Source: Bacteroidota bacterium
GTDB lineage: Bacteria; Bacteroidota; Ignavibacteria; UBA10030
DNA: 36,817 nt
Assembly: GCA_026416125.1 (NCBI GenBank)
Contig: JAOAFT010000006.1
Span: forward strand, 77,015 to 113,831
Reading direction: 5' to 3'
Shown: in pieces, positions 2,991 to 36,817 of the stretch
Position numbering within the stretch: position 1 is the stretch's first letter
Layout of the letters: each line of letters starts with the position of its first letter
Position numbers and translations under genes: made by a program
Notes under the pieces: model-generated
Database searches by the model: none
The model's input: only the letters and a program-made list of their open reading frames with translations
What the model was told of the DNA's origin: nothing

Positions 2991-3001
2991 CCCCGCGCAG
3001 T

Positions 3002-3066: not shown

Positions 3067-3165
3067 ATAATTGTCCCACCACATTCTTACGCTGATTAAA
3101 CCGCACAATGAAAACATTATTTCGTATATTGTATATTCTATAAGCAACAAACAGAAAGGAGTACG

Positions 3166-4248: not shown

Positions 4249-4348
4249 CATTTAGCTAACTTTCTGCTTTATAGATAGCTATGAAATCGATTATTTACGA
4301 AACTTACTTGTGTTCCTCCACTAACCACTTGCTTGCTCTCGTAAAGAA

Positions 4349-4376
4349 TTGACTGTACTTTACAAGAAAATATGTG
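4349..4376 (+). promoter_or_regulatory. Candidate sigma70-like promoter for mscS
   Basis: TTGACT at 4349-4354 (5 of 6 to the -35 consensus) is followed after 16 bases by TATGTG at 4371-4376 (a weak -10). Transcription from here would start around 4383, downstream of the GTG at 4374 and upstream of ATG 4410, which agrees with ATG 4410 as the true start of the MscS gene. This is motif matching only. Confidence 0.3.
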
Positions 4377-4398
4377 CTCACATCTGCTCAACTGTATT

Positions 4399-4402
4399 GG
4401 AG
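4399..4402 (+). promoter_or_regulatory. Ribosome binding site that decides the mscS start
   Basis: GGAG lies 7 bases upstream of ATG 4410. No comparable site precedes the in-frame GTG at 4374, so the shorter reading frame is preferred. Confidence 0.65.
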
Positions 4403-4409
4403 TTACCCA

Positions 4410-5489
4410 ATGGATACACGACATATGTTTGGCATTGTTCCGTACATTCTTCCGCCAAGTATCATCCTTGTTGCGATCATAGTTGGATCAATTGCCGATA
4501 GAATTATCCAACGAAAGCTAACTAAACTCGCAACAAAAACACGGTGGGAGGGAGACGATATTATCATCCAAGCACTCCAAGGTATTTTTAAATTGTGGTT
4601 CTTACTCTTTGGAATATATGTCGCTCTCCCTCTTATTCCGTTCAAACGAGAGTACCATGAAATCTTTACCAATATCATTGTCGCTAGTCTGATTTTTTCG
4701 TTCACGATCATTCTTGCACGAATTGCATCGTCATATCTTGCGTTAAAGACGCAAAAGGTACAAACAGTACTCCCTTCGACCTCCATAATAGTAAACATTA
4801 CACGGTGGACGATTTATGTACTCGGTGCTCTTATTATCTTGCAAACGATGGGAATTTCCATTACACCAATTCTTACAGCACTTGGGGTTGGAGGTTTAGC
4901 AGTAGCTCTCGCGCTTCAGGATACACTTTCAAACCTTTTCGCTGGTCTCCACATCTTACTCACACGGCAAATTCGACCCGGTGATTATATTAAGTTAAGT
5001 TCTGGTGAAGAAGGAATAGTTGCAGATATTACCTGGCGAAACACAACGATACAACAACTAGCAAACAATCTTATCATTATTCCGAATTCAAAACTTGCAA
5101 ATACTATTGTGATTAACCACTACCTTCCGGAGAAAGATTTATCGATTACTATCCCGCTCGGTGTAAGCTATGAAAGTAATCTCGAACATGTTGAACATGT
5201 GACACTCGAAGTAGCTCGCGAAGTTCTTCGCGAAGTACCTGGTGGAGTTCCAGATTTTGAGCCTGTTATCCGGTTCCATACCTTTGGTGATTTTAGCATC
5301 AATTGTAATGTGGCTTTGCGTGCTCGAGAGTACGCCGATCAATTTCTACTCCGACACGAGTTTATAAAACGGCTACACAAGCGTTATGCAAAGGAAGGAA
5401 TAATAATACCATACCCCACCCGGACTATTTACGTAGAGCAAGGGAAGGAAATTCCTCGAAACCACACTGAACAGCAGAACCGTGTTTGA
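4410..5489 (+). CDS. MscS-family mechanosensitive ion channel
   Basis: Inner-membrane channel that opens under membrane tension to release solutes on osmotic downshock. It is 359 residues from ATG 4410 (371 if the upstream GTG 4374 were used). Four hydrophobic helices lie at roughly residues 14-30, 56-78, 86-104 and 131-150, followed by the glycine/alanine-rich pore helix containing LGVGGLAVALALQD. Next comes the MscS beta domain with RPGDYIKL, GIVADITWRNTTI and IIPNSKLANTIVINH, then the alpha/beta C-terminal domain. The ribosome site GGAG 4399-4402 decides the start. Its 3' end is convergent with the RNase R gene, with only 12 bases between the stop codons. A short stem CGTGT/ACACG surrounds the stop but has no T-tract. 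Confidence 0.92.
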   Translation: MDTRHMFGIVPYILPPSIILVAIIVGSIADRIIQRKLTKLATKTRWEGDDIIIQALQGIFKLWFLLFGIYVALPLIPFKREYHEIFTNIIVASLIFSFTIILARIASSYLALKTQKVQTVLPSTSIIVNITRWTIYVLGALIILQTMGISITPILTALGVGGLAVALALQDTLSNLFAGLHILLTRQIRPGDYIKLSSGEEGIVADITWRNTTIQQLANNLIIIPNSKLANTIVINHYLPEKDLSITIPLGVSYESNLEHVEHVTLEVAREVLREVPGGVPDFEPVIRFHTFGDFSINCNVALRAREYADQFLLRHEFIKRLHKRYAKEGIIIPYPTRTIYVEQGKEIPRNHTEQQNRV

Positions 5490-5501
5490 ACACGTGAGCT
5501 G

Positions 5502-7658
5502 TTAATCAGTAAGAAGAATAAAATCTACTTGCCGTTGCTCAGCATTCACCCGTACAAGTTTTACTCGGACTCGATCACCGAGTCTATACATTGTCCTGGT
5601 GCGCCGTCCAATGAGTGCGTAGTGCTTTTCATCGTATGAATAGTAATCGTCCATCAATTCGCGAACATGAACCATCCCTTCCACTAAGATGTCGGTCAAC
5701 TCTACAAAAATGCCATACGGAGCAACACCTGAAATAACTGCATCGAACTCCTCACCAAGATGTTTCTTCATATATTCTACTTGAACCGCTTTTACCGCTG
5801 CTCGTTCTGCTTCCATTGCAACACGCTCTCGTTCTGACGATTGCTTGGCAATGGCTGGTAGTCTTTGCTTCAATTGCTCACGTTCGTGTGGAGTAATCCC
5901 GCTGGTGTACTTCTTTAACATCCGATGGACAACAAGATCAGGGTAGCGCCGAATGGGGGATGTAAAGTGAGCATAGTAATCGAACCCTAAGCCATAGTGA
6001 CCAATATTATGTTCGGAGTATACTGCTTTAGCCATTGATCGGAGAACAATTTCATTGATAATGTTTTCAACATCTGTCCCCTTTACTTGGGTAAGCAACT
6101 TTTGGAGCGCCTTCGCATTGACACCCTTTTCAATGTCGAGAGAGAAACCAAATTTTTTAACAAAGAGTGCTAATTCTTGAATTCGTTGTGGATCAGGAGC
6201 ATCATGTACACGGTAGAGAAATGGTTCTCTGTGTGTATTCGGTTTTGGCATACCGATGTGTTTTGCAACAACTCTGTTCGCAAGAAGCATACATTCCTCA
6301 ATGAGTCTATGACTCTCAAGCCTCACCCTCTTCACTATTTCGATTGGCTTTCCTTCTTCATCGAAACGGAACGAGACCTCAGCCGTCTCAAAATCAATAC
6401 TTCCTTCTCTCAAACGCTTTTTTGTCAATGTTGATGTGAGAGCATAGAGCATCGTGAACGCAGTGACATACTGCTCGTCACCAGGTGAAACAGGTTTTCC
6501 GGACCTAAGTCTGTTGAGTATCTCCTGGACTTCTTCATACGTGAATCTTCGACTGCTACGAATAATGCTGGGAGTAATACTGTACTCTTTCACAGCACCA
6601 CGTGGCGAGACAACCATGATAACAGAGTACGTAAGCTTTTCCTCATTTGGGCGTAGACTACAGAGGTATGTTGAGAGTCGCTCTGGTAACATTGGTATCA
6701 CACCATTCGGGAGATAAACACTTGTACCTCTACGCAATGCCTCTTTATCGAGTTCACTCCCTTCCGCTACGTAGTGTGAAACATCGGCTATATGAACACC
6801 CAATTTATAGTTTCCATCAGGAAGTTGTTCAATAGAAAGTGCATCGTCAAAATCTTTAGCGTCTTCGGGATCGATTGTGAAAGTGAGAAGGGATCGAAAA
6901 TCACTTCGCCGAGCAATTTCATCACTCCCAATGTCAGCTGGAAGGGCTTCTGCTTCTCGGAGTACTTCGGGAGGAAACGATCGTGGCAGTTCATACTCGT
7001 GCACGATAGCTAAAAGTTCAGTTGACAACTGTCCTGGAGTACCAAGGCTCTTCAAAATACGTCCACGTGGTACCTCGTGTCGATGCATTGAGAGAACTTC
7101 GACAACTACTTTTTCACCCACCTGAGCTCCTTGAAGAGCATTGGAGGGAATAATCACCTCTTGAGAAAAATCTTTGGAATCGGGAATCACAATGTAGTGT
7201 TTCCGTACTCGGTCGAGTATGCCTGTAAGTATCCGATGTTTGCGCTTTACAACTTGTAGAATATCACCATGTCGAACTTTGTGTGCATACCCTTTGGATG
7301 GATGAGAGTGAACAAGTACTTCTACTATGTCTCCATCGAACACTACATCATCAGTATAAGTACGGATCTCAATCTCTTCATTCGTCCCATCAACGATAAC
7401 AACCCCTCGCTGACGAACTTTCTTAAAAATGCCTTGTACCCGTTCTTCGCGGTGGAGATGCCCATACTTTTTCCCACGAACACGGAGAATTGCTTGCTTA
7501 TCTTGCAAAAAGCGTAGTTGTTCTTTGAATTGGAGATATGTTTTCTCATCACGAATACCTAGTCGACGCGCAAGTTCACGCGCTTTGAAGAGTTCATTTG
7601 GGAATCGTTTAAGAAATTGAAGTATTTTTTTCTGGAGTTCTTCGTTTGGTATTGTCAT
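5502..7658 (-). CDS. rnr: Ribonuclease R (RNB-family 3'-5' exoribonuclease)
   Basis: Processive 3'-5' exoribonuclease that degrades structured RNA in the cytoplasm. It is 718 residues, close to the usual bacterial length. The order is an N-terminal winged-helix region (about 1-65), cold-shock-like OB domains (about 70-205), the RNB catalytic domain (about 250-580) and a C-terminal S1 domain (about 635-715; VAPYGIFVELTDILVEGMVH). The catalytic acidic cluster is intact in TIDPEDAKDFDDAL: Asp263, Asp269, Asp271 and Asp272 correspond to the four metal-binding aspartates of RNase II/R. The ATG lies 18 bases after the tamB stop with no clear ribosome site, suggesting it is the last gene of the rfaE1-rfaE2-tamB-rnr transcription unit. 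Highly confident. Confidence 0.96.
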   Translation of the reverse strand: MTIPNEELQKKILQFLKRFPNELFKARELARRLGIRDEKTYLQFKEQLRFLQDKQAILRVRGKKYGHLHREERVQGIFKKVRQRGVVIVDGTNEEIEIRTYTDDVVFDGDIVEVLVHSHPSKGYAHKVRHGDILQVVKRKHRILTGILDRVRKHYIVIPDSKDFSQEVIIPSNALQGAQVGEKVVVEVLSMHRHEVPRGRILKSLGTPGQLSTELLAIVHEYELPRSFPPEVLREAEALPADIGSDEIARRSDFRSLLTFTIDPEDAKDFDDALSIEQLPDGNYKLGVHIADVSHYVAEGSELDKEALRRGTSVYLPNGVIPMLPERLSTYLCSLRPNEEKLTYSVIMVVSPRGAVKEYSITPSIIRSSRRFTYEEVQEILNRLRSGKPVSPGDEQYVTAFTMLYALTSTLTKKRLREGSIDFETAEVSFRFDEEGKPIEIVKRVRLESHRLIEECMLLANRVVAKHIGMPKPNTHREPFLYRVHDAPDPQRIQELALFVKKFGFSLDIEKGVNAKALQKLLTQVKGTDVENIINEIVLRSMAKAVYSEHNIGHYGLGFDYYAHFTSPIRRYPDLVVHRMLKKYTSGITPHEREQLKQRLPAIAKQSSERERVAMEAERAAVKAVQVEYMKKHLGEEFDAVISGVAPYGIFVELTDILVEGMVHVRELMDDYYSYDEKHYALIGRRTRTMYRLGDRVRVKLVRVNAEQRQVDFILLTD

Positions 7659-7676
7659 AGCATTTTCACTGGAATG

Positions 7677-10600
7677 TCAGAACGTAAATCGGTAGAATAT
7701 TTTCGCGCTATTGTATGCGCGACGTTGCATTTCGGAGTACTCGAAGCTTTCAACTTTGTGTTCGAGTGAGAGAATAAGGTTCCGTGAAAGCATGGAGAGC
7801 GGTAATTCAACACTAACGTTTGCATTTCCAAATGGGTCGTTGATAACTTTTCCACCAAAACGTATAATAGCATCTCCAACTTGGCCTGTTAGCCGTACAT
7901 CTGCTGATTTTTGGAACTCTCCCCCATAGTAGAGAACATCAACAGATTGTATGTAGCCTCCTGTATTCCTTCGTAACGCTTCGCTAAGTGGTCCTGTAAT
8001 CATTCCTGCAGCAAGTCCAAACCCGAGATTAGTACCAATAAGGCTCGTACGCTGTTGAGCAGTAAGTTCATCTGTGAATTGACCACTGAGAATAAACGAT
8101 ATTGCATTCGATTCATCGTCTCCGGTCTCGTAGCGTACCCATTCATTATTTTCGTACCGTTCGATACGGGTAGAAACTTTCGGTTCAGTACGTGTCCCAG
8201 TGATATTGAGAATTACAGCAATACGTTCCCTGTCTGTCTGCGATGAAAACGATGATGTCTGGGATCGTGTTGGTGCCAGAGTAGTATCAAGAATATGAAT
8301 ACCTTCGTATCGTGCAGTCACATTAAGTTCTGGATTTCCAAGATCTCCTGTGAACGTTATGGTACCAGCTGCATCGAACTTTTTAAAGAAATTGTAGTAG
8401 GAACGTTCACCAACTTCAACTTGTCCGGCAAAACGACTTATTGTTCCTACTTTATTATATGTCAACCGACCCTTTAACACGGCAAAGAGCTCTTCACTTG
8501 TCTGTGTATTAAAGACAAACCGAATCGAGTTATTTCCACGGGTTTCAACAGCAATATCGTAGTCAATATTGTTCAAGAATGATTCTTCGGCTTTGCTGAG
8601 CTGAGATGGTTGCCCATTGTGGGCTTGTTGTCGGAATGATTTCGTCTCTTTCACTGTCATCGTATCATTTTCAAATGTTACAGCAATTGTACTTGCACGG
8701 AGTGGTGGTGCTTCACGCTCAGGCGGGAAAATTAATTGAGCATCCAGTAAGTAAAGCTCTCCACGAATGAGTGATCGTTCAGGTGTCCCTTGCCATGAGA
8801 GACCTTGCGGGGATGTACCAACATAGAGTGTACCATACATCGACTGTCCTGGCATACGTTGCTCCTTCATGACAAGTAACTTCCCCTCAGCTTTCAATGA
8901 AAACCTCTTTACAGAAAGTCCACTGAGAATACATGAACCAGTAATATCCAGACGGCCATCTGTCCGCTGATCTTCTGGTACATTGCTTATGGAAACATCT
9001 TCCAGGTAAATACGATTCCCTTCGGATACCGCACGACCATCGAGAATGTACTGTACTCCAAGAGGCCGAACGAGGAACCGTACATTGTTGAAGACAATAG
9101 AACCACTATACTCCGGGTTGCTAACACTACCTTGAACCTTTAGATTGCATGCGATTGTACCAGAAACATTCTGGAGAATAGGAAAAAATGGAGAAAGAAG
9201 GATTGCATTAATAGCATCTCCACGAATTTCTATATCAAGCATGCCATTTGCAGGTATATCTGTTCGACTAGGTGATATTGAGAGCTGAACTGGTATTGTT
9301 CCTCTTACAGTCACATCGGGTTGTAATAGAGAACTTCTTGCACTCGTAAACATTAAGAGTGCTGTGGATAACATATTCTCATAGTAAGATACATCAAGAA
9401 TTGCAGTACCAAAATACACATCGTGAATGCTTCCATCCTGTATTTTTAAATTACAAACGAACGATGGCTTCTCCACTGTCCCACGAATAATGCCACGACA
9501 ACTCATAGCTCCAGTAAGTTGATGGAATGTCCCCATTGATTGAGTTTGCCGGATAATATTTTTCAAATCACTAAGATTAAAGTTTTCAACACCAAATACT
9601 ATGTCAGACATTCCAGAGGGATTAAAGAGCCCTTTAACAACGAGGGTGGTTGTATCACGAAGTAACGTAAGGTTGTCTACCCATATGCCTTGATTTGTGA
9701 AATAACAACGGAATGGCTGGAGTGCCCGTACGCCCCACAGGGTATCAAACAAACACTCGAACACAGGAAATACACACCTCAGTTGTGTGCGCTCCCGTAT
9801 CCATGTGTTTTCTGCACGTAGTGTAACAAGTGAATCAACTATACCATAAAGGCATATCCTCCCAGAATCTCCACATGCATCAACCGCAAGACGTACTCTA
9901 TCCACAAGAAGATGATTGTATGTCAACGTCTGTGCTTCGCAATGGAATGATGTAGCAAACGAATGGAAGTTGGTACTTTGTACATTTGCATCGATCGTAA
10001 TGGTTGCATTCAAACCGCTGAGCATGAGATACGAAGATGGGTGATCAACTATGAACTCGCGTGAACCTACATTGAAGTTGCTTACAAGGGTATCTTCTTC
10101 AACATGGAAAGATCCTCGCAATTCAAGATCACCTTCGAGAGGAGTGGCAATGAACACACCAAAAGGAGTAAGATCACGACATTGCAGGTGGAAAGTAACG
10201 TTTTGTGACGGCATTGCAATCGGAAAAACTATTTGCTTAGTACCCTGCGTCGGGGTATTTTCAAAATACATGAGGTAGTCGGTAAAATATGTACTATACA
10301 GGGCTACAATTCTCTCTACTCCTTGGATAAGCGACCCGAGTGTATATGAACCCTTACAGGAGAGATCGAAGGGTTCAGATTCCAAAATGATAGTACGTTC
10401 GTTTCCTTCTAAATAGTGACGTACCAGGATACTTCCACCATCGAATGAACGCTCGCCCATGCTGGATGGGTAAAACAGGAGTTCGAGTGAATCTTTCCCG
10501 CCCTGTGCGTCCCACCTTCCACGAGCTTGAACTTGGAACGAAAGGCTGCTTTCATACTTTGAATTGTTGAGAATTTCTGCGCAATTACAAGAAATTACTT

Positions 10601-12149
10601 TTCCTTGAACTGAGTATGAAGTTTCGTCATGTGCAAATAGTACTTTCGACGATAATTCATATCGACCTGTCCCCACATTCATTACCAGATGTGAATTCAA
10701 AAGACCATCTGCAATGTTGCTAACGAGTACCATTGAATTAATAGGTATTGTATATACTTTCGATGAGTCAAGTACAGCTTTCATAACGGCAGACATTGAG
10801 CTAAGATTTGTACCTGCACCATTGATTGTCAATGTTCCGTTGAGTGAACTTTGTATTGTTGTATCGTTGAGTAGGGGACCAATGTTTACTTGTTGAAACC
10901 TAACTACCCCGTCGTATGTAAAGGGGGTTGTCTCGAATGAGATGGTCGCAGTAGCATCAACTGAACCTAGTGAGGTACGAGCATTGAGGTACGATTGAAA
11001 TTTTTGTGGAGTACCCTCGTATGCAAGTTTACCGGTAACATACCCTAAGAACCCAAGATTCGGCAATGAAAGCCCGGGAAGAAGTTCATTGGTGAGCGAT
11101 GGTGCAAGTTGTAATTCCTGCGAGTGCACAGAAAGGTAGAGGTTCTCTGGATTATGGAGATTCACCAACCTCCCTTGTAGCGAGAGTTTCGATTGCCCTA
11201 CCGTAATGGTACATTCATTTATTATACAATCACCAAAACGACCCTTAGACTCAACAGAGAGATCCAGTTCTCCATCTAAAAAATCAACATATGGATATAG
11301 AAATTGTTTTAGTTCCACTGTTGAAAGTGGTGTTGCATCGAGTTTTAAGAATACAGGCTTATCGAAAAGATTTTCAAGTGTAATTGGGCGAAAAATATTT
11401 GTGTTAAGGAGCGATGCTGTGAACTGGATATTTGATCGTGGTAACACGACGTGGACATTCTTTGCACTGATTTCATTTTCACGGAGTGTAAACACTCCAG
11501 TTAAACGTAAAATCCTTACTTCCGGGAGCACGGTCATACATTGAAACGATCGTACTGTTGCTTCGTAGCGATTGCGTGCGAGAAAAAGAGAGGCACTGAC
11601 AGTAAGTGAGTCAATACGAATGTGTGCGTAATCAATACATTGTGAGGGGAGTGGTTTTACGCGTTGCGAAAGAGCAAGTGAATCTATGACTTCAACACAA
11701 GCATTGTCGATAGTAACATTCTTAATATCGATTGACCACGGTGATGGTGTTGTATCTGGTTTTGATGTCTGAAACAATCGCTCGATGTTCCATGTTCCAT
11801 CAGTAGATCGTACTAGTACAACAGATGGATTTTCTACTAATGCATTTGCAATACCAACACGTTTCAGTAAAAGAGCAAACGGATCGTATTTGATTGTTAC
11901 AGTATGAGCTGAGATAACAACATTTTCACGCTCGAAGAATACAACTTCCTTTAAGCGAAATCCAGTAAGCAAATTCCCTTCAATAGAGTTAATCCACAGT
12001 TGACCGTTAACAATGGAGTGAGATTTATCGATGATTGTTGTCCGTAGGTACTCACGAAAAGCAGCTGTTTGTGTAAACCCTGTAAATACAACAAGGAGAA
12101 AGAGAATAATAACTGCACTGTAATATGTAATTCGTAAATACTTCTTCAC
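7677..12149 (-). CDS. tamB: TamB/DUF490-family translocation and assembly (AsmA-like) protein
   Basis: Very large (1490-residue) inner-membrane-anchored periplasmic protein. Residues about 8-27 form one N-terminal membrane anchor. The first 130 residues resemble the AsmA/TamB N-terminus (NGQLWINSIEGNLLTGFRL, a pattern seen in TamB proteins). The long middle is repetitive beta-strand-rich sequence, as expected for a bridge-like beta-taco, and the last roughly 350-400 residues match the TamB C-terminal (DUF490) region in style and end in an aromatic residue. Members work in outer-membrane protein assembly or lipid transport from inner to outer membrane. The start is a GTG at 12149, with no convincing ribosome site, 22 bases after rfaE2. 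No TamA-like partner adjoins it; the nearest BamA-type barrel in the window is the patatin fusion at 29067-31844. Confidence 0.88.
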   Translation of the reverse strand: MKKYLRITYYSAVIILFLLVVFTGFTQTAAFREYLRTTIIDKSHSIVNGQLWINSIEGNLLTGFRLKEVVFFERENVVISAHTVTIKYDPFALLLKRVGIANALVENPSVVLVRSTDGTWNIERLFQTSKPDTTPSPWSIDIKNVTIDNACVEVIDSLALSQRVKPLPSQCIDYAHIRIDSLTVSASLFLARNRYEATVRSFQCMTVLPEVRILRLTGVFTLRENEISAKNVHVVLPRSNIQFTASLLNTNIFRPITLENLFDKPVFLKLDATPLSTVELKQFLYPYVDFLDGELDLSVESKGRFGDCIINECTITVGQSKLSLQGRLVNLHNPENLYLSVHSQELQLAPSLTNELLPGLSLPNLGFLGYVTGKLAYEGTPQKFQSYLNARTSLGSVDATATISFETTPFTYDGVVRFQQVNIGPLLNDTTIQSSLNGTLTINGAGTNLSSMSAVMKAVLDSSKVYTIPINSMVLVSNIADGLLNSHLVMNVGTGRYELSSKVLFAHDETSYSVQGKVISCNCAEILNNSKYESSLSFQVQARGRWDAQGGKDSLELLFYPSSMGERSFDGGSILVRHYLEGNERTIILESEPFDLSCKGSYTLGSLIQGVERIVALYSTYFTDYLMYFENTPTQGTKQIVFPIAMPSQNVTFHLQCRDLTPFGVFIATPLEGDLELRGSFHVEEDTLVSNFNVGSREFIVDHPSSYLMLSGLNATITIDANVQSTNFHSFATSFHCEAQTLTYNHLLVDRVRLAVDACGDSGRICLYGIVDSLVTLRAENTWIRERTQLRCVFPVFECLFDTLWGVRALQPFRCYFTNQGIWVDNLTLLRDTTTLVVKGLFNPSGMSDIVFGVENFNLSDLKNIIRQTQSMGTFHQLTGAMSCRGIIRGTVEKPSFVCNLKIQDGSIHDVYFGTAILDVSYYENMLSTALLMFTSARSSLLQPDVTVRGTIPVQLSISPSRTDIPANGMLDIEIRGDAINAILLSPFFPILQNVSGTIACNLKVQGSVSNPEYSGSIVFNNVRFLVRPLGVQYILDGRAVSEGNRIYLEDVSISNVPEDQRTDGRLDITGSCILSGLSVKRFSLKAEGKLLVMKEQRMPGQSMYGTLYVGTSPQGLSWQGTPERSLIRGELYLLDAQLIFPPEREAPPLRASTIAVTFENDTMTVKETKSFRQQAHNGQPSQLSKAEESFLNNIDYDIAVETRGNNSIRFVFNTQTSEELFAVLKGRLTYNKVGTISRFAGQVEVGERSYYNFFKKFDAAGTITFTGDLGNPELNVTARYEGIHILDTTLAPTRSQTSSFSSQTDRERIAVILNITGTRTEPKVSTRIERYENNEWVRYETGDDESNAISFILSGQFTDELTAQQRTSLIGTNLGFGLAAGMITGPLSEALRRNTGGYIQSVDVLYYGGEFQKSADVRLTGQVGDAIIRFGGKVINDPFGNANVSVELPLSMLSRNLILSLEHKVESFEYSEMQRRAYNSAKIFYRFTF

Positions 12150-12171
12150 TCGCGTTAGTTATCATACTACA

Positions 12172-12666
12172 TTATTGTTGTTGCATGAGTTGATTGTGTG
12201 CGTTTAGAATTCTTTCGATAATCGACGTTGTCGATCGATGTGGGACAAACTCTATCGTTTTCACTACACCGCCTGCTGATTCAACAACGTCACGACCAAC
12301 AACATCCTCAATTGCCCAATCTGCCCCTTTGACCAACACGTCGGGGACAATCGCCTTAATGAGCTCGTATGGTGTATCCTCGTCAAAGTAACACACATAG
12401 TCAACAGCACTAAGTGCACTGAGTACCGCAGCACGATCGTCTTGTGGTACTATTGGACGTGTTGGACCTTTCAATCGTTTCACTGATGCATCAGTGTTTA
12501 ACCCTATTACAAGTACATCGCCTAAAGCTCGTGCTTTTTGGAGATATTCAACGTGGCCTCTGTGGAGAATGTCAAAGCAACCATTTGTAAAAACAACTCT
12601 TTTCCCTTCGCGACGTAACTGTTTTCGAATATCAAGAAGTTCTTCACGTGTGACAATTTTCCCCAT
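12172..12666 (-). CDS. rfaE2: D-glycero-beta-D-manno-heptose 1-phosphate adenylyltransferase
   Basis: Cytidylyltransferase-fold enzyme of 164 residues that transfers AMP to heptose 1-phosphate in ADP-heptose synthesis for lipopolysaccharide core. The nucleotide-binding motif FTNGCFDILHRGH (residues 26-38, HxGH at 35-38) is intact, as are GLNTDASVKRLKGP and the C-terminal STTSIIERI motif. In Enterobacteria this is the C-terminal half of bifunctional HldE; here it is a separate protein. It starts 2 bases after the rfaE1 stop, and the GGAGAG in the last rfaE1 codons acts as its ribosome site, so the two are translationally coupled. Confidence 0.95.
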   Translation of the reverse strand: MGKIVTREELLDIRKQLRREGKRVVFTNGCFDILHRGHVEYLQKARALGDVLVIGLNTDASVKRLKGPTRPIVPQDDRAAVLSALSAVDYVCYFDEDTPYELIKAIVPDVLVKGADWAIEDVVGRDVVESAGGVVKTIEFVPHRSTTSIIERILNAHNQLMQQQ

Positions 12667-12668
12667 CC

Positions 12669-13673
12669 TTACCGCTCTCCATTGAAATACTGTCGTGCAT
12701 TCTTATAAAGTTCAGACACATTCACAGGTACGATACCAACTTCACCGCATACAATACCCCCTGCAATATTCGCAAGTGTAGCAGCCTCACGAACTGTTGC
12801 TCCGGCAACAAGTGCCATCGTCAAGGTTGAAATTACTGTATCCCCTGCTCCAGATACATCTGCTACTTTCCGTGCAGTTGTTTCAACGTGGGCAGAGGTT
12901 CCATTTTTTTCATAGAGGAGCATACCTTTTTCACCAAGGGTGACGAGTACGTTTTCAGCTTCCAATCGACGTTGTATTTCCGCAGCGGCGACTTTAACAT
13001 CGTCCAGCGAATGAAGTCGAATGCCAAGTGCTTCTTCAGCTTCTTTCTTATTAGGTTTAAAAACCGTTACATGTTTATACTCAAAGAAATTGTTAAATTT
13101 TGGATCAACAGTAATAATTTTTTGAGCACCTCGTGCTTTGTGTATAATTGCACGGACTAAATCCTTTGTTAGAACCCCTTTGTTGTAATCTTCCAAAATA
13201 ATTCCATCAAGTTCGGAAAGCATCTTCTCAATAGTGCTGAGTATCTTTTCCTGAATTTCCTGGCGTATATCCGCTTTAACTTCATGATCAATACGCACAA
13301 CGTGATGGTCGTGAGCAATAACTCTGCTCTTAATTGTCGTTGGCCTGGAATCATCTACCACAATTCCCGTTGTTGGGAACCCAGCTTCTTCAACGAGACG
13401 ACGAAGGACCGTCGCACCTTCATCCTTGCCTACAACACCCACCATAATTGGTACTCCACCAAGTGAGGCAATGTTATTTGCAACATTAGCAGCACCACCT
13501 AGACGATTTGCCTCCTCAGTAACTTCAACAACCGGCACTGGAGCTTCGGGGGATATCCGCGTTACCGTTCCCCAAAAGTACCGATCGATCATTAAATCGC
13601 CAATGACAGCAATTCGTTTGTTCTTGAAACCGCTAAAAATTTCGTCTATTCGTTTTTCCGACAATAGCACCAT
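12669..13673 (-). CDS. rfaE1: D-glycero-beta-D-manno-heptose-7-phosphate kinase
   Basis: PfkB/ribokinase-fold kinase of 334 residues that phosphorylates heptose 7-phosphate at C1, the step before RfaE2. Visible features are KRIAVIGDLMIDRYFWG near the N-terminus (substrate side), ISPEAPVPVVEV, the GGAANVANN motif, and the C-terminal ATP-site signature DVSGAGDTVIS with the catalytic Asp. The frame is open upstream to 13778, but ATG 13673 is chosen because the conserved N-terminus begins there and AAGGG (complement of 13681-13685) lies 7 bases upstream. It is the first gene of the rfaE1-rfaE2-tamB-rnr cluster, with a candidate promoter at 13798-13827. Confidence 0.94.
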   Translation of the reverse strand: MVLLSEKRIDEIFSGFKNKRIAVIGDLMIDRYFWGTVTRISPEAPVPVVEVTEEANRLGGAANVANNIASLGGVPIMVGVVGKDEGATVLRRLVEEAGFPTTGIVVDDSRPTTIKSRVIAHDHHVVRIDHEVKADIRQEIQEKILSTIEKMLSELDGIILEDYNKGVLTKDLVRAIIHKARGAQKIITVDPKFNNFFEYKHVTVFKPNKKEAEEALGIRLHSLDDVKVAAAEIQRRLEAENVLVTLGEKGMLLYEKNGTSAHVETTARKVADVSGAGDTVISTLTMALVAGATVREAATLANIAGGIVCGEVGIVPVNVSELYKNARQYFNGER

Positions 13674-29066: not shown

Positions 29067-31844
29067 TCAATAGTTGAACCGAACAAGTGGATACCCAATA
29101 CTGAAAGCAAATTCCAATGGACCCCAACTGACGGGATGTGTAAACACATCGATTCGTGTAAAGAATGCTCGTCCAAGTGAAGCTTCTGCTGGCCCAATAG
29201 GAGTATCAAAGGCAAGCGTAACACCAAATCCATGAGTGAAGTCTGCACTTTTCACTTCGCGTGTCCTTGCCCACAATCCACCGAGGTCGTAGCGCGCTTT
29301 AAGGTACGTATCAAAGTAGAAATGAATTGGAAGTTTGTATTGGAGTTCCAAACTTCCAAGGAAGAGCTGTCGTCCGAGTTTGTCATTTTCTTTGAGTCCA
29401 AAGAACGAGTGTTGTCCTCCAAGCGAAAACTGTTCACTTACTGGGACAGCATTATCACCAACCCCGATGACAAATTTGGGCCGGAGTGTAAAAATTTTCC
29501 ATGCTGTTGCGTATGTTTCGTATGAAAAGAAGAACTTCGTGTACCCAATATCTCCACCAAGGTTAACTGTTGCTGTTTCGTAGTAGAAATTCATAACAAT
29601 TCCGGACGTTGGGTAGGGAAATTTGTCTTGTGTGTCGAGCTCTGTTCCTAAGCGGAGTGTTGATAGCCGGTAGTTCTGATTCTGAATTGGTGTTTCGTCA
29701 ATATTCATTGCTGCAACGTTTTCTACACGACTTGATATGAGAAGAGTTCCTAATCGTTCGAGTTGTGTACCGAAGTTTAATGCAATCCCATTTTTTCGAA
29801 TTCTATACTCACCTGTTCGGGAACGATTGAAAAAAGAACTACGCATTGGTTGTGAATAATCGTACACATTCACATTCCGTACATCGATGTACGTTTGAAG
29901 GCCAACCGTAAGATACGTATTGAAAATACGTGTTGCTTTTATTTCTGCACCGTAGTATTGGTTCCGTTGTCCGCCAGCAATGCGGAGACCAGCTTCTGTT
30001 GCTGTTCCAAGGAAGTTCTCATCACGCGCATCGAGTGACGGTTGAAACCCTCGTTCATTATCTATGCGCAGTCCTACACGGAGGAGCGCAGTACTTCGTT
30101 CGCGCACATCGATGACAAGAATGGTACGGGGGGTAGTACTTTGTTCCCGCTCCACCATCAATACTACTTGCTCGAAGAGACTCGTTGCATAGAGGTTTGA
30201 AATTCCTTGTGCTGCTCGTTGAATCGAGAAGAGATCGCCACGAACGAGCGGAAGTTCACGACGTACTACCCAATGTTTTGTTTTCACTGCCCCTCGTACA
30301 TCGATTTGATCGACAACTCCTTCATCGATGTGTACTGTAATCGAACCCCGCGATGTATCGATCTCCACACGGCGTACTCTCGCAAGAGCATAGCCCAGGG
30401 AACGATAGCGAGTGAGAACAGTTTCCAGAAACTGACGGAATGATGTGGCGTTGTAGTGCGAACCAATGAGTACACGAGCATACGTTGCAAGTGTATCCTG
30501 TGAGAGTACTGTCACCCCTGTACATGAAAGTTCATTGAGTCGAAATGTACGAGTTGGAATAATTTGAATGAGTGTTGAATCTCCCAGCGGTTCAACATAT
30601 GCTTCTACACATTCGTAACCTCCGTACTCTGTGAGTTCTGCAAGGAATTGTCGCAACACCCCCTCGCGAACCTCACCTTGCCTTATCCATTGTTCTACTC
30701 TAGTACTATCGATCCTGAGTTCACGTTCCCACTCAAAACGTGGATTCTTGTAGGTAGCATCTTCTGTTTGAGAACTTTGTACACGTACCCATTTCTCCTC
30801 AATGGTGTTGCGAATACGAGGGAGTGCTTCGAAGGCAGCACGCTCTCCACAGGAAATTAGTGTGTCGATGTTCGAGAAGTCGTTAGAAAGGTGATTGCCG
30901 AGGTTTGGTGTAATGACAACATCAGCTTTTAATTTTGAGAGTTTGTTCACTTGTTGCATCATGATTGTTGTAATTTGGTCGACCATTTCCCATGGTGTGG
31001 AGAGTTGATCACGACTGCGTAGCGTACTCATCATCTCAACAGCAATGATGATGTCAACACGTTCCTGGATAGCAACTTCTACAGGAAGATTCTCGACAAG
31101 GCCACCATCGAGGAGTTGGAGCGTATCTTTCTTCACACTCGTAAATAGGAGAGGGATAGCTGTACTAGCCCGAATTGCAGTGGTAAGGTCTCCATATTTC
31201 ATGACAATTCGTTTGCCAGTTACCAAGTCTGTTGCAACGGCACGAAATGGAATTTTCAAATCGTCAAAGGAGTATTCCGGGTGGTACACTGCTTGCAACG
31301 TAAGAATGTTAAGGTATCGCGTGAGACGTTGACCTGTAGAAAATGCCGATGGGATTACAGGTTCAAAACCTTCAAACCGGAGAACAATAACACTCCGATC
31401 GCGAGCAACTTTTTGATCGATGAACATTTCTTCGCGACGTGCTTCATCGGAAAGACTAAGAATTTCATCCCACCGTGTCGTATCGGCAATGTGTTCTAAT
31501 TGCTCTAGTGTGTAACCAGCGGCGTACAGCCCCCCAATAACACTTCCCATACTTGTGCCAACGATGAGATCGATAGGAATTCGTTCACGTTCAAGCACCT
31601 TCAAAACTCCAATGGCAGAGAGTCCACGAGCACCACCACCACTGAGTACAAGAGCAATCTTTGGACGTTTTGGTTTTCGGATGGAAAACCCTTCGAACGC
31701 TGTCTTCTGTACTTCACTGTATGGCTGTATAACAGTGATTCCTTGTGGTTGAGCTGTGCACACGCTTGCGCTGAATAAAAGCACAGCTACTCCAACACAC
31801 ATTGATGGTACCAACCACCTTATCGATGTTCGCACGATGTACAT
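29067..31844 (-). CDS. Patatin-like phospholipase fused to POTRA and BamA-type outer-membrane barrel
   Basis: About 925 residues from ATG 31844. A signal peptide (about 1-32, ending SVCTAQ) is followed by a patatin domain with oxyanion motif GGGARG (about 69-74), nucleophile elbow GTSMG (Ser98) and the catalytic Asp in LLDGG (about Asp246). About residues 400-600 contain POTRA-like repeats (FRLNELSCTG, DQIDVRGAVKTKHWVV). The last 300 or so form a 16-strand BamA/Omp85-type barrel ending LVRFNY. The architecture resembles PlpD-type (type Vd) secreted lipases, but is longer because of extra POTRA units. It likely acts as a lipase tethered at the outer membrane. The frame is open upstream to 31910 inside the OPT gene, but the signal peptide begins at ATG 31844, four bases after the OPT stop, so translation is coupled. 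Confidence 0.92.
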   Translation of the reverse strand: MYIVRTSIRWLVPSMCVGVAVLLFSASVCTAQPQGITVIQPYSEVQKTAFEGFSIRKPKRPKIALVLSGGGARGLSAIGVLKVLERERIPIDLIVGTSMGSVIGGLYAAGYTLEQLEHIADTTRWDEILSLSDEARREEMFIDQKVARDRSVIVLRFEGFEPVIPSAFSTGQRLTRYLNILTLQAVYHPEYSFDDLKIPFRAVATDLVTGKRIVMKYGDLTTAIRASTAIPLLFTSVKKDTLQLLDGGLVENLPVEVAIQERVDIIIAVEMMSTLRSRDQLSTPWEMVDQITTIMMQQVNKLSKLKADVVITPNLGNHLSNDFSNIDTLISCGERAAFEALPRIRNTIEEKWVRVQSSQTEDATYKNPRFEWERELRIDSTRVEQWIRQGEVREGVLRQFLAELTEYGGYECVEAYVEPLGDSTLIQIIPTRTFRLNELSCTGVTVLSQDTLATYARVLIGSHYNATSFRQFLETVLTRYRSLGYALARVRRVEIDTSRGSITVHIDEGVVDQIDVRGAVKTKHWVVRRELPLVRGDLFSIQRAAQGISNLYATSLFEQVVLMVEREQSTTPRTILVIDVRERSTALLRVGLRIDNERGFQPSLDARDENFLGTATEAGLRIAGGQRNQYYGAEIKATRIFNTYLTVGLQTYIDVRNVNVYDYSQPMRSSFFNRSRTGEYRIRKNGIALNFGTQLERLGTLLISSRVENVAAMNIDETPIQNQNYRLSTLRLGTELDTQDKFPYPTSGIVMNFYYETATVNLGGDIGYTKFFFSYETYATAWKIFTLRPKFVIGVGDNAVPVSEQFSLGGQHSFFGLKENDKLGRQLFLGSLELQYKLPIHFYFDTYLKARYDLGGLWARTREVKSADFTHGFGVTLAFDTPIGPAEASLGRAFFTRIDVFTHPVSWGPLEFAFSIGYPLVRFNY

Positions 31845-31848
31845 GTGG

Positions 31849-33849
31849 TTACGATTGATGAGCGTTGTTCCCACGCATTGAGTCCCATACGAAGTAGGTG
31901 CAAAGCACACTGAAGAGAAGAAGCCCAGTCAGTTCTCCTCCTACAGATTTTACCCATTCTGTCTGGTACCACGATGCATATCCGAACGGAACATTTTGAT
32001 CAATGAATCGTAGTAATGCATTGAGTACGCCTAGTAACGCACCACCTGCAATGAATCCAGAAGCGATAAGTGTCCCCCGTTGTTGCCGCGCAGTGTTTAT
32101 TGCTCCATCAGTGCTCCGTGACGAAACGAACCACGCAATGAGCCCTCCAACAAGTAGAGGGGTATTCAACTCTTGTGGAATATACATTCCAAGTGCAAAT
32201 GCTAACGGAGGTACTTTCAGAAAGAACATTACAACTGAAAGTACTGCTCCGACCCCATAGAGCATCCAAGGCGTTTCTGCATTCGACATTAACGGCTTGA
32301 TAACAGCTGCCATTGCATTAGCTTGTGGTGCAACAAGTGCGTGCTCACCAGTAAATCCATATGCCTCGTTCAGGAGCAGTATAACACCGCCGACAGTGGC
32401 AGCCGAAATTAGTACGCCGAGAAATTTCCATGTCTCTTGGTTCTTAGGTGTTGTCCCTATCCAGTATCCAACTTTTAAATCTGTAATGAATCCACCAGCA
32501 ACTGAGAGTGCTGTACAAACAACACTTCCAATAATCAGTGCGCTGAGCATACCCGATTCACCAGTTAACCCAACGTTGACCAAAACGAGAGAAGACAGAA
32601 GCAATGTCATTAGCGTCATTCCAGAAACTGGGTTCGTACCAACTATGGCGATTGCATTTGCAGCAACTGTTGTGAAGAGAAATGAAACAACGACAACAAC
32701 CGCAAGAGCACTGAATGCTTGAAATGCAGTTGGTACAACACTAAGTCTAAAGAACGTGAAAATTGCCAATGAAGTCAGAATGATGAGTGTTACGATCCAG
32801 AGCATTCGAATATCCGCTTGCGTACGGAGCTGGTGTTCTTGAATTGTACGTGAAGGGTGGATAATCTCCTTGTACGCAAGCTTCACAGCATTTCCAATAA
32901 TTTTCGATGACCGGAGAATTCCAATTATGCCAGCCATTGCAATACCACCAATGCCAATTTGTCGTACGTAGGTGCGGAAAATCTCTTCTGGACTCATGTG
33001 TGCAATGAGCGTTGAAGAGGCAATTGGCACGCTAAGATGCTGTCCAAATTCGTATACCAACGGTATGAGTACAAACCACGAAAGGAACGAACCAGAAACA
33101 ATTATCGTTGCGTACTTCAAACCAACGATGTAACCTAATCCAACGATCATTGCAGAGACATCGAGTTTTAAGACCACTTTTGCCTTGTCAGCAAGGGCTT
33201 GCCCCCACGCAATAATTCGTGTTGTTACAACTTCTGACCACCACCCGAACGCACTGAAAAGAAAATCGTACACCCCTCCAATGAGTCCACTAACAACGAG
33301 TACTTTTGCCTCTGCTCCGCCTCGCTCGCCCGCCATGAGTACCTCAGTTGTTGCTGTAGCTTCAGGGAATGGTAATTTCCCATGCATGTCGTTCACAAAA
33401 TACTTTCGGAAGGGTATAAGGAAGAGAATTCCTAAAAAACCACCGAGCGCTGAGGCGATGAACATTTGAATGTAACTTGGTGGAAGAGAGAGAATGTAGA
33501 GTGCCGGAATTGTGAAAATCGCACCAGCAACAACAACACCGGAACATGCTCCTATAGACTGGATGATAACGTTCTGTGCTAATCCGTCCTTCTTCTTAGC
33601 GAGTCCAGTAATTCCTACAGCAAGAATTGCAATGGGAATAGCTGCTTCGAACACTTGACCAATCTTGAGACCAGAGTATGCAGCTGCAGCAGAGAAAATA
33701 ACTGCCATTACTAGTCCCCAGCCAACAGACCAGGGCGTGACTTCGGCATATCGCTGTGTTGGTGAGAGTACCGGCGTGTACGTTTCGCCTTCTTTGAGTT
33801 CACGATATGCATTTTCGGGAAGGCCACTCGTCGTTGTTCTGTATTCCAT
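31849..33849 (-). CDS. OPT-family oligopeptide transporter
   Basis: Inner-membrane transporter of 666 residues, with about 14-16 hydrophobic helices, predicted to import oligopeptides (or metal-chelate compounds) using the proton gradient. OPT features include GLKIGQVFEAAIPIAILAVG near the N-terminus, the LPFPEATATTEVL motif (conserved FPxxxA), KYATIIVSGSFLSW, and the C-terminal AFALGMYIPQELNTPLLVGG. GAGGAG about 6 bases upstream of ATG 33849 supports the start. It follows pepT by about 107 bases and is coupled to the patatin gene. A peptide importer next to peptidase T makes a peptide substrate the likeliest reading. Confidence 0.94.
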   Translation of the reverse strand: MEYRTTTSGLPENAYRELKEGETYTPVLSPTQRYAEVTPWSVGWGLVMAVIFSAAAAYSGLKIGQVFEAAIPIAILAVGITGLAKKKDGLAQNVIIQSIGACSGVVVAGAIFTIPALYILSLPPSYIQMFIASALGGFLGILFLIPFRKYFVNDMHGKLPFPEATATTEVLMAGERGGAEAKVLVVSGLIGGVYDFLFSAFGWWSEVVTTRIIAWGQALADKAKVVLKLDVSAMIVGLGYIVGLKYATIIVSGSFLSWFVLIPLVYEFGQHLSVPIASSTLIAHMSPEEIFRTYVRQIGIGGIAMAGIIGILRSSKIIGNAVKLAYKEIIHPSRTIQEHQLRTQADIRMLWIVTLIILTSLAIFTFFRLSVVPTAFQAFSALAVVVVVSFLFTTVAANAIAIVGTNPVSGMTLMTLLLSSLVLVNVGLTGESGMLSALIIGSVVCTALSVAGGFITDLKVGYWIGTTPKNQETWKFLGVLISAATVGGVILLLNEAYGFTGEHALVAPQANAMAAVIKPLMSNAETPWMLYGVGAVLSVVMFFLKVPPLAFALGMYIPQELNTPLLVGGLIAWFVSSRSTDGAINTARQQRGTLIASGFIAGGALLGVLNALLRFIDQNVPFGYASWYQTEWVKSVGGELTGLLLFSVLCTYFVWDSMRGNNAHQS

Positions 33850-33956: not shown

Positions 33957-35201
33957 CTATTTTTCCGACGGCTTACTTTTTTCTGCCCAAATACGGACGA
34001 GATTTACAACTGTTTCAACCGCTTTTTCCATACCCCATACATTGAGCCACTCCGTTCGACTGTGAAAGTTTGCTCCTCCTGTGAAAATATTCGGTGTTGG
34101 CAATCCAGCTTCTGTTAATCGTGAACCATCTGTTCCTCCGCGAATTGGTCTCCAATGAGGATTCAGACCCGCTTGTTTTGCAGCTTCAAATAAGTACTCT
34201 GTCACACGAGGATCTTTTTCAAGTCCTTCGCGCATGTTCCGATACTGCTCGACGATTGTCATCTCAATTTTCGCCTTAGGATGAAGTTGCTCTACTTCCT
34301 TAATCACAGCTTCGACAATTGCTTTGAGCTTCTCTAATCCTTCTGTGTGAAAGTCGCGGAAGAGAATTTTCACTGTTGATTTTCCAACACCCCCTTCGAG
34401 AATGTATGGGTGGATGTACGGTTCATACCCTTCTGTACATTCAGGAGAAATTTCTTTTGGTAATCGCGCAATGATGTCTGCAATGACACGGATGCTGTTC
34501 ACCATGATCCCTTTCGCTGTTCCCGGATGGATATCGCGACCATGGACTGTAATAGTGCACGCATTTGCACTGAAGGTTTCCTTGTTGAGTTCTCCTGGAG
34601 CATCACCATCAACTGTGTATGCTACGTGAGCACCAAATGTTCCAATATTAAAGTACTTTGTTCCTGCACCAATTTCTTCATCCGGAGTGAATGCAATGCG
34701 GAGTTTTCCATGAGGTACTTCTGGGTGTGCAAGGAGGTACTCAACTGCTGCCATAATAATGGCAATGCCAGCTTTATCATCTGCACCGAGAAGCGTTGTG
34801 CCATCGCTCGTGACAATCGTTTTTCCAACTGCATCCTTGAGAGCTGGATTCTCAGATTCACGAATGACAACGGACGGATCCCCAGGCAGTACTATATCAC
34901 CCCCGCTATACGTGAACACCTGTGGCTTTACGTTTGCACCACTAACTTCTGGCGATGTATCGACGTGTGCAATAAATCCAATAACCGGTACGTCGTAGGG
35001 AACAGTTGCAGGTACTGTTGCCATGACGTAACCGTGCTCATCGACCGATGCATCGGGAATTCCAAGATCTCTAAGCTCGCTTACAAGTAGGTTAAGTAAA
35101 TCGAATTGCTTTGTTGTACTTGGATAGGTATCAGAATTCTCTTTCGATTGCGTGTCAATCACAGCGTAGCGTAAAAATTTGTCGAGAACATGTTCAGCCA
35201 T
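33957..35201 (-). CDS. pepT: Peptidase T (tripeptide aminopeptidase)
   Basis: Cytoplasmic M20-family zinc aminopeptidase of 414 residues that removes the N-terminal residue from tripeptides. Metal and catalytic residues fall where expected for PepT: IAHVDTSPE (His79, Asp81), LLGADDKAGIA (Asp141), TPDEEIGAGT (Glu175-Glu176), TVDGDAPGEL (Asp198) and a late NFHSRTEW (His near 379). The frame extends six codons further, but ATG 35201 is the start because AAGGAG (complement of 35207-35212) lies 5 bases upstream and the conserved N-terminus begins here. It is upstream of the OPT transporter, giving an uptake-plus-hydrolysis pair. A palindrome GAACATGTTC overlaps codons 3-5 and recurs 103 bases upstream. 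Confidence 0.96.
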   Translation of the reverse strand: MAEHVLDKFLRYAVIDTQSKENSDTYPSTTKQFDLLNLLVSELRDLGIPDASVDEHGYVMATVPATVPYDVPVIGFIAHVDTSPEVSGANVKPQVFTYSGGDIVLPGDPSVVIRESENPALKDAVGKTIVTSDGTTLLGADDKAGIAIIMAAVEYLLAHPEVPHGKLRIAFTPDEEIGAGTKYFNIGTFGAHVAYTVDGDAPGELNKETFSANACTITVHGRDIHPGTAKGIMVNSIRVIADIIARLPKEISPECTEGYEPYIHPYILEGGVGKSTVKILFRDFHTEGLEKLKAIVEAVIKEVEQLHPKAKIEMTIVEQYRNMREGLEKDPRVTEYLFEAAKQAGLNPHWRPIRGGTDGSRLTEAGLPTPNIFTGGANFHSRTEWLNVWGMEKAVETVVNLVRIWAEKSKPSEK

Positions 35202-35298
35202 ACAATCTCCTTCTCTCATACGAGTTCACACAAACTTTTGAATAAGATAGAAAGAATGGTTGTGAAAAAACAGAGGAAACAACACATAGAACATGTTC
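35186..35298. repeat. Two identical perfect 10-bp palindromes flanking the pepT 5' region
   Basis: GAACATGTTC occurs at 35186-35195, inside the first codons of pepT, and at 35289-35298, about 90 bases upstream of the ATG. Both are preceded by A, so 11 bases are shared. Center-to-center spacing is 103 bases, about ten helical turns. The arrangement could be an operator pair for a dimeric repressor, but no regulator gene is nearby and coincidence is possible. Confidence 0.35.
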
Positions 35299-35353: not shown

Positions 35354-36817
35354 CTATTTCTCTTCCGCTTCAATCCCTAATTGGCGAAGGGCTTCAAGTA
35401 TTTTATTTTCGTAATCCTGTTTGGAAATTTTTCCTCCGCCTGCTTTAATAGTAACGAGAATTGTTTCAAATTGATTTTGCAAGTAATTTATGATCCGTGA
35501 TACATCCGATACTTTCCCTTTTGGAATTTCGAATTCTAAACAAACGGAATCCATAGAAGTGCTGTCTCCCGTCCAACCACGTTGTGGTTCACGAGTAAGT
35601 GTGACTTCCTTTGTAACTGGTTCCTCATGGTATCCGACCTTGTGTCGTTTCTCGACTGCACTGTCGTCATTCTTCTGTTCTTTACATAACTCTGCGTTGA
35701 GTAGAACCTCACTTGTACTAAATTCGACAAGTGGTACTTCCCGAAAGAAGCGGCAAACTGGTGTATTATTTTCTAGTTCACCAAGACCGAACACACCTTT
35801 CTCGACCCCATCGGCTATTGCCTTCTGAAGAACGCTCCGTTCGCTTACACGCGGTTCACCTGGTACTCTGTAGCTTGCCTGGAGAATTTGTGCTGTCGAT
35901 ACAAATGGATGCTTTCCTAAATATCGCTCCTTAATTACTAATGGAACTAGTTGCTCTACAATTTCTCCATTCGAGCAGAGTCTACTATACACTTCATACT
36001 CAAGCGGTTTTTGTTCACCATACGTCGGAATTCCAAGATCATCTTTTTTATACCCATCTTTTGATGGAATAGCAATCTGACGGTACAATCTGCGAAGCGC
36101 TTCGTGTAGTTCAGTCCCACGCTTCTTTAGCTCAACTTGAAGCTCTTTGCGCTGTTCTTCCGAAAGTGGAAGTGTTCTATCGTGTTCAATTGCTAGATAT
36201 GCTTTGTAACGCTTGAGTTGAGTTGTAAAACTTGCCCTCTCAATTTCTGTTGGAAACACAAAAAAAAGTGTATTGCAGTTTACTCTCGGAGTTGTCCCTT
36301 TGGATTTTAAAATATTCCCTATGACGTCCGTTTTTTCCTCAGGTAAAAAGATGAGTTTAAGTTCTTCTGTATCTGGAATGGATGAAGAATTTTCTTCCCA
36401 AATGAAAACCTTAAGTTTATCGCCACGCACATTTTGTTTCAGGAGTTCTTTTTCAAATTCACGTACTTCATTATCGGAAACATTTTCCATCTTTGTTAAA
36501 ATAATCCGATTGATGTTCGGTGTATTTGAGAAAAAGTACTTATCGCTTTGAAATTGGAAGTAGTAAAGCTTATTCTTTAACTGCTCAAGCGCTTCTGCTA
36601 CAACACTTGCAGGATTACTCAACGTCGTTGCTGTCCGCTTTATCTCAGTGAGTGTTGCACCACGTTCTGGACCTCCAGAAAAAGAGTACATGAAAATTAC
36701 CGTTGCAGCCCGTGTGGCAAGGTGTAATCCTTTATAAGCTTCCCCTAAATGTGCGTCCACCTTTTTACTACCGGCATCAGCATCTGTAATATCCTGAGCA
36801 ATAACACTGTTATATTC
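35354..36817 (-). CDS. DUF499-type AAA+ ATPase, C-terminal part (5'-truncated by window edge)
   Basis: The frame is open from the right edge of the window; the GTG at 36760 is internal, since residues before it (EYNSVIAQDITDAD) continue the domain. About 487 residues are visible. The pattern fits the C-terminal part of the large DUF499 proteins (COG1483-like): ATRAATVIFMYSFSGG, then GATLTEIKR, a paired-helix segment with LYYFQFQSDKYFFSNTPNIN, the VFIWEE and ELKLIFLP strands, RVNCNTLFFVFP, and a C-terminal helical end (DYENKILEALRQLGI). The nucleotide-binding part would lie outside the window. Such ATPases occur in restriction/anti-phage clusters, often with a DUF1156-type methylase and a helicase. 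Assignment is by pattern recognition only. Confidence 0.7.
   Translation of the reverse strand, partial: EYNSVIAQDITDADAGSKKVDAHLGEAYKGLHLATRAATVIFMYSFSGGPERGATLTEIKRTATTLSNPASVVAEALEQLKNKLYYFQFQSDKYFFSNTPNINRIILTKMENVSDNEVREFEKELLKQNVRGDKLKVFIWEENSSSIPDTEELKLIFLPEEKTDVIGNILKSKGTTPRVNCNTLFFVFPTEIERASFTTQLKRYKAYLAIEHDRTLPLSEEQRKELQVELKKRGTELHEALRRLYRQIAIPSKDGYKKDDLGIPTYGEQKPLEYEVYSRLCSNGEIVEQLVPLVIKERYLGKHPFVSTAQILQASYRVPGEPRVSERSVLQKAIADGVEKGVFGLGELENNTPVCRFFREVPLVEFSTSEVLLNAELCKEQKNDDSAVEKRHKVGYHEEPVTKEVTLTREPQRGWTGDSTSMDSVCLEFEIPKGKVSDVSRIINYLQNQFETILVTIKAGGGKISKQDYENKILEALRQLGIEAEEK

Follow-up and report, generated by a model that had tools for sequence, protein, structure and literature searches.

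The question raised by this locus is to which system a protein cut off by the end of the DNA belongs, and where the rest of that system lies. The window, that is, the whole stretch of 36,817 nucleotides analysed here, spans bases 77015-113831 of contig C66. This contig is 113831 bases long, so the window's right edge coincides with the contig end and no rightward extension is possible. A minus-strand frame of 487 residues runs open through this edge, as seen in an earlier sequence-only reading, which took its product for the C-terminal part of a DUF499-type ATPase. This identification is borne out by the PADLOC model HmaC (PDLC00662), which matches the fragment at 1.5e-25 over profile positions 407-844 of 941, and by the alignment of the fragment to longer relatives, on which its DUF499-type identity is based. 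Five of these relatives, of 845-848 aa, are 49-54% identical to the fragment along its length, and a sixth (880 aa) is 37% identical; by comparison with these six, approximately 361 N-terminal residues of the hmaC product lie beyond the end of C66.

The profile check proposed with that reading gave a mixed outcome. The PADLOC DUF499 profile matches the fragment at 4.1e-8, and Pfam DUF499 is found in the longer relatives L011 (3.6e-34) and L014 (9.3e-39), but the Pfam search of the fragment itself returned neither DUF499 nor DUF6079, only Enkurin at an E value of 0.4, and a Pfam scan of the relative L005 at 0.001 matched no family. The NCBIfam DUF499 anti-phage model NF042962 matches the fragment at 2.6e-9, with 35.6 bits for a cut-off of 1200 bits; naming the fragment by Pfam or NCBIfam alone was dropped, given that these matches were too weak. 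The AAA+ core of the ATPase is seen in the relatives only, with a GGGKT and a Walker B-like motif in all seven that were checked, within the part that is missing from the window protein, the protein's own copy being past the contig end. Taken together, the fragment very probably represents roughly the C-terminal 57% of HmaC, which is the ATPase component in the Hma (Type-1 BREX-related) anti-phage system.

A structure model of the fragment (pLDDT 83.1) has winged-helix-like regions at approximately residues 1-100 and 285-380, and these predicted regions are consistent with the published domain order, no more. No chain among the 993 compared by VIA-align reached a Z of 8 or above, and the top score, 7.5, was to a subunit of RNA polymerase III, a Z this low being common for winged helices. 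The tail of the ATPase, modelled alone (pLDDT 82.9) for comparison with the C-terminal RRM/ferredoxin-like domain expected of a Type-1 BREX-related ATPase, has two helices and no DSSP strands. Foldseek at 0.001 matched neither model, and a sequence-profile search of the PDB with the fragment at 0.01 found nothing.

The partner genes were sought in the same genome (assembly of 2.41 Mb, rated 98.65% complete) with the three proteins of the complete operon L011, in which helicase (2857-6213), methylase (6210-8921), and ATPase (8918-11461) follow in this order, each gene overlapping the next by 4 bases. Their best PADLOC models are HmaA, HmaB, and HmaC, and the Pfam families of the set are DUF499, DUF1156 with DNA methylase domains, and helicase domains with NOV_C. 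The ATPase matched in the window only, the methylase matched on contig C27 and, weakly, over 65 residues on C22, and the helicase matched on C27 over residues 4-1114 of 1118, with 65% identity, together with a different helicase (32% identity) on C38. The DUF1156 methylase and the helicase predicted by the sequence-only reading are thus present in the genome, on C27 (locus L022), a contig of 19184 bases (Table 1). The C38 contig (L024, 3722 bases) carries a second defence fragment with two frames, 2-2206 and 2203-3720, both cut by the contig ends; its helicase is closest to the PADLOC models DpdE and DrmD, its methylase is DrmMI-like, and the sequence is possibly DISARM-like.

Table 1. Coordinates of the locus on the window and on contig C27.
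Feature	Position	Strand	Description
pepT (M20 peptidase)	window 33957..35219	-	Pfam Peptidase_M20 1.4e-16; border gene, outside the system
Direct repeat, left copy	window 35241..35258	+	in the pepT-hmaC gap
hmaC, C-terminal part	window 35354..36817	-	487 codons and stop; DUF499-type AAA+ ATPase, from profile matches and relatives
hmaB	C27:1-2235	-	DUF1156 methylase, partial, open at contig start
hmaA	C27:2232-5576	-	complete, 1114 aa; Snf2 helicase with C-terminal nuclease-type domain
Direct repeat, right copy	C27:5637-5654	+	in the hmaA-hydrolase gap

HmaA matches its PADLOC model (PDLC00659) at 2.8e-204 and contains the motifs DDPGAGKT and DEAH, as well as a Pfam NOV_C domain (5.5e-24 at 994-1081); its FDIRS (at 1023) and IEVKAR (at 1037) may be read as the catalytic residues of a PD-(D/E)XK-type nuclease. 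The same Pfam search at 0.001 found no TUDOR domain and no HKD nuclease. HmaB, although incomplete, matches its model (PDLC00661) at 1e-77, with DUF1156 (PF06634; 3.1e-21) at residues 11-60 of the N-terminus and the motifs DPFSGGG and DPPYY. The latter is presumably that of an amino-methyltransferase. Such an assignment, to which the sequence points, would be in line with the PADLOC label and with the portion of PMC12839542 that deals with these methylases. The native sequence stops just past DPPYY, where the L011 protein continues for 373 residues further. We take the first 19 bases of C27 to be a Tn5/Nextera mosaic end left over from the library adapter, so that the partial HmaB as predicted ends in residues that are not native. 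In comparison with its relatives, the protein also has additional in-frame sequence: one such stretch, situated behind the first methylase motif, is well over 100 residues long, and further ones abound in GGGAAT-like heptamers; a three-unit heptamer pattern from hmaB had no match in the genome at 2 mismatches.

The hmaA and hmaB genes overlap by 4 bases, and hmaB and hmaC are both open at contig ends, in compatible orientations. Their junction falls in the assembly gap, which is unsequenced: no contig bridging the end of C66 and the start of C27 was found, and the N-terminus of the ATPase, sought in this genome with the L011 protein at E values up to 1, was not found. Given that an 18-base repeat occurs at both outer flanks only, C66 and C27 can be inferred to be neighbours, and the operon to have been split by the assembly at the methylase-ATPase junction. 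The expectation that the rest of the system lies just right of the window therefore holds for the existence of the partner genes, while their adjacency is deduced across the gap. Between the repeats there are 1559 bases on C66 and 5617 on C27; comparison with L011 suggests that the junction lacks at least about 2.2 kb, and that the unit would measure at least about 9.4 kb.

The flanking repeat is what is new at this Hma locus. Its two copies, AATAAGATAGAAAGAATG, are identical over all 18 bases, and have the same orientation when the end of C66 faces the start of C27. With up to 2 mismatches allowed, the whole assembly has no further copy, and the reversed control gave none at all. A shared stretch of 18 bases was reached in none of 200 resampled flank pairs. 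In a control that set 12 intergenic gaps from the window and C27 against one another (132 comparisons), the longest shared stretch was 13; the pepT-hmaC gap, being covered by a spurious 74-aa frame, was for that reason not part of this set. A unique repeat at both flanks suggests the insertion of a unit, and the operon was probably, though far from certainly, inserted as one piece that duplicated the sequence upstream of pepT. The contrast in composition is modest: the hma genes have 40.4-41.8% G+C, the nine neighbouring genes 44.5-46.5%, and the whole window 43.1%, with the third-position G+C of hmaB (42.3) inside the range of the neighbours (36.1-46.1). The pepT loci of 14 relatives yielded no empty site, and no integrase or transposase was seen near either border in the gene lists, which were scanned by eye. 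In the other hma operons, the longest exact flank-to-flank repeat is of 8-12 bases in all 11 tested, lengths reached in 6 of 200 resamples for L014 (12 bases), 20 for L041 (11), 22 for L043 (10), and 96 or more for the remaining eight. If the repeat is an insertion scar, it offers a handle on how Hma operons move.

A less probable reading, although one that has to be taken seriously, also accepts a single operon unit, and regards the repeat as a regulatory or promoter site common to pepT and hmaA, with no insertion scar. This could be so because the copies stand upstream of both genes, with approximately 22 bases separating one copy from the predicted start of pepT (40 from an internal Met) and approximately 61 separating the other from that of hmaA. 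It is favoured by the similar sequence (up to 4 mismatches) near the pepT start in seven of the 14 relatives' pepT loci, five of these seven relatives coming from one genus; six of the sites are upstream of the predicted start, and one (L060) is inside a frame, the predicted start of which is probably too early. The heptamer TATCTTA, in addition, occurs upstream of genes in the 14 loci 8 times for 1.2 expected, six of the eight occurrences preceding pepT itself. A regulatory site is less easily reconciled, however, with a sequence present at only two places in the genome, or with its 14-base core, which is found at five places at up to 1 mismatch (two exact and three with one mismatch), compared with three for the reversed control, and which is no common element of this genome. 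The repeat is also missing before the first hma gene in all 12 other operons, where the best sites have 6-9 mismatches. Insertion of the operon as a unit remains the preferred reading.

It is quite unlikely that the hmaC piece is an orphan remnant and the C27 genes a separate, partly lost system, which the different contigs, the unseen junction, and the truncation of hmaC itself in locus L010 would allow: there is a single HmaC match in a nearly complete assembly, one HmaB and one HmaA (leaving aside the weak C22 match and the different C38 helicase), the orientations of hmaB and hmaC fit, and the unique direct repeat stands at both outer flanks.

Outside the proposed unit, pepT stands on one side together with an OPT transporter and a patatin-Omp85 protein, and on the hmaA side, on C27, are a hydrolase and a response regulator, followed by genes read by eye as the nuo operon. 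PADLOC at 1e-5 found no match in pepT, the OPT protein, the response regulator, or the hydrolase, and pepT and the OPT transporter are ordinary genes. The patatin-POTRA-Omp85 protein (window 29067-31910) is matched by PADLOC phospholipase effector models with up to 46 bits over approximately 55 residues, and is probably an ordinary surface protein. The sequence-only reading is upheld in part. As to the accessory island that it proposed, the locus does not have the look of a large cluster: beyond hmaA, C27 continues with the hydrolase, the response regulator, and the putative nuo genes. The idea of pepT as the boundary between core and accessory genes is plausible, with pepT and the transporter being ordinary and the repeat lying between pepT and hmaC. 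In 13 of the 14 relatives (L047-L060), the OPT transporter follows pepT on the same strand, as in the window, with one gene between them in L050; the exception is L060. The gene upstream of pepT varies across the 14 loci: the C27 hydrolase has no match among these upstream genes at 1e-10, and in L052 the position is occupied by a response regulator 32% identical to that of C27. The pepT gene and the best nuoN match were never found on one contig in the 14 relatives, many of the contigs being short and the nuoN match in G020 being weak.

The order of the operon would be hmaA, hmaB, hmaC, with pepT at one end and the hydrolase gene, close to the nuo genes, at the other, and it would have arrived as a single unit that left the 18-base direct repeat of the pepT upstream sequence at both ends. 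In the mechanism proposed here, HmaB would mark the host DNA, HmaC, with its AAA+ and winged-helix domains, would form an ATP-driven scanning complex that tells unmarked DNA apart, and HmaA would unwind and cut the unmarked phage DNA. These roles follow the analysis in PMC12839542, which refers to an experimental study (its reference 112) as having confirmed the phage-defence role of the helicase. By analogy with that analysis, a restriction mechanism of marking, scanning, and cutting has an even chance of describing HmaABC.

A contig scan of genomes recovered 10 loci with relatives, archaeal and bacterial, at 35-56% identity by best segment. Among 100 genomes, including the present one, matches were found in this genome and in one other, at 23% identity, and 18 of the 392 genomes of the phylum, again including this one, reach 1e-60 or better with the HmaC profile. 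In the tree built by FastTree (26 sequences, 360 columns), the window protein clusters, at a split support of 0.968, with L005-L011 and L028; L027 joins next (0.986), followed by L014 (1.000), the support for its exact sister being 0.078. The closest relatives recovered belong to other lineages, which fits horizontal transfer. Phage records had no match, and the 144 plasmid records were all below 60% identity. In viral contigs, 102 stretches matched the search pattern, and none of these was confirmed as a relative.

The methylase-ATPase junction, which is hidden here, is variously occupied in the relatives. Pairs of MNT and HEPN genes occupy the hmaB-hmaC interval, or directly precede hmaC, in L005, L007, L008, and L010; L008 has a TIR-domain protein in the same position, and an AAA_15 (OLD-like) ATPase is found near the junction in L012 and, by likeness to L012, in L006. 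An MNT-HEPN pair also lies between hmaA and hmaB in L012, and an MNT gene overlaps the start of hmaA in L011. The junction has no extra gene in L009, L011, and L028 (where hmaB itself is broken), and approximately 0.9 kb without a clear gene in L014. In L027 (G147:C5), a 1450-aa TmtA-like protein with sacsin and NOV_C domains (9313-13665) stands between hmaB and hmaC, its frame overlapping both, and HmaC bears a Schlafen AlbA_2 domain at its N-terminus. Ten other HmaC proteins of the phylum sample carry an N-terminal Swt1-type HEPN, one of them below the Pfam cut-off, and these, together with L027, make up the 11 fused loci. An MNT or HEPN gene lies between or abuts the core genes in 5 of 13 unfused loci and in 0 of 11 fused loci (two-sided Fisher p 0.041, post hoc and with relatedness ignored), a count that excludes L010 and L012 (in which hmaC is broken, and which both carry MNT-HEPN pairs), L013, L004, L040, and the present locus, and in which L006-L009 were scored as unfused by length or alignment only. 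In L035, a fused locus, an MNT-like gene lies immediately outside hmaC, on the opposite strand. The occurrence of auxiliary nucleases within and near BREX-related loci, and the fusion of HEPN to MNT, have already been described (PMC12839542; PMC3710099, in the sections concerned), and TIR, sacsin, and TmtA are absent from the main text of PMC12839542.

It may be proposed, as a rather doubtful extension, that the branch of Hma to which the window belongs has an ATPase without a fused HEPN RNase, and that exchangeable cassettes, often toxin-antitoxin pairs of the MNT-HEPN type, would take its effector slot in trans at the gene junctions, above all that of hmaB and hmaC, where the assembly gap falls, with the operon being mobile as a unit and here leaving a direct repeat of the host target at both ends. 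The missing junction represents a specific and easily sequenced test for a backup cassette in this Hma member.

In comparison with known systems, BREX proper, or a Type-2 or Type-3 BREX-related system, is highly improbable: the DUF499 and BrxC ATPases are related, according to the text of PMC12839542 on these families, and residues 1-98 of the fragment model align with BrxC 9zdx in VIA-align (Z 6.6, rmsd 2.9, 81 aligned), a score tied with those of many unrelated winged-helix proteins, but DUF499 reaches 118.2 and 133.0 bits in the two relatives tested, far above DUF6079, which appears in only one of them (P0005, 20.5 bits, below the cut-off, in the same protein that has 133.0 for DUF499), HmaA has NOV_C and no HKD nuclease match, and no pglZ or DUF3780 was noticed by eye on C27 or the right part of the window; the gap could hide one. 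Type-3 BREX has a related ATPase, methylase, and helicase (PMC12839542, in its account of that type), but differs in having DUF6079 where this system has DUF499, and the present locus has a nuclease-type domain on the helicase and no pglZ noticed; in Type-3 BREX-related systems, the helicase is without a nuclease fusion and is accompanied by PglZ and iSTAND genes, whereas this HmaA carries NOV_C.

The locus is an Hma system, also called Type-1 BREX-related, and as such is of a known kind and not the undescribed system for which the sequence-only reading took it as a lead, having been described by Payne et al. 2021 (PMC8565338) and, in 2026, as Type-1 BREX-related (BR) in the relevant part of PMC12839542. 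With Type-1 BR it shares the DUF499 ATPase, the DUF1156 methylase, and the helicase with a C-terminal PD-(D/E)XK-type nuclease domain. The N-terminal HEPN, found in 1370 of 2446 Type-1 BR taxa in the counts given by PMC12839542, is unfused in the close relatives, in contrast, and that part of the window protein is missing. With Hma it shares the SNF2-type helicase, the DNA methylase, and the AAA+ ATPase, best matched by the HmaA, HmaB, and HmaC models; it differs in that the passage of Payne et al. on HmaB (PMC8565338) presents an m5C enzyme, whereas a DPPYY motif is found here, and in that the hmaB-hmaC junction is unseen at this locus. A fragment at the edge of a contig can in this way be assigned to a defence family that is widespread but little tested, and its system's likely borders fall among housekeeping genes.
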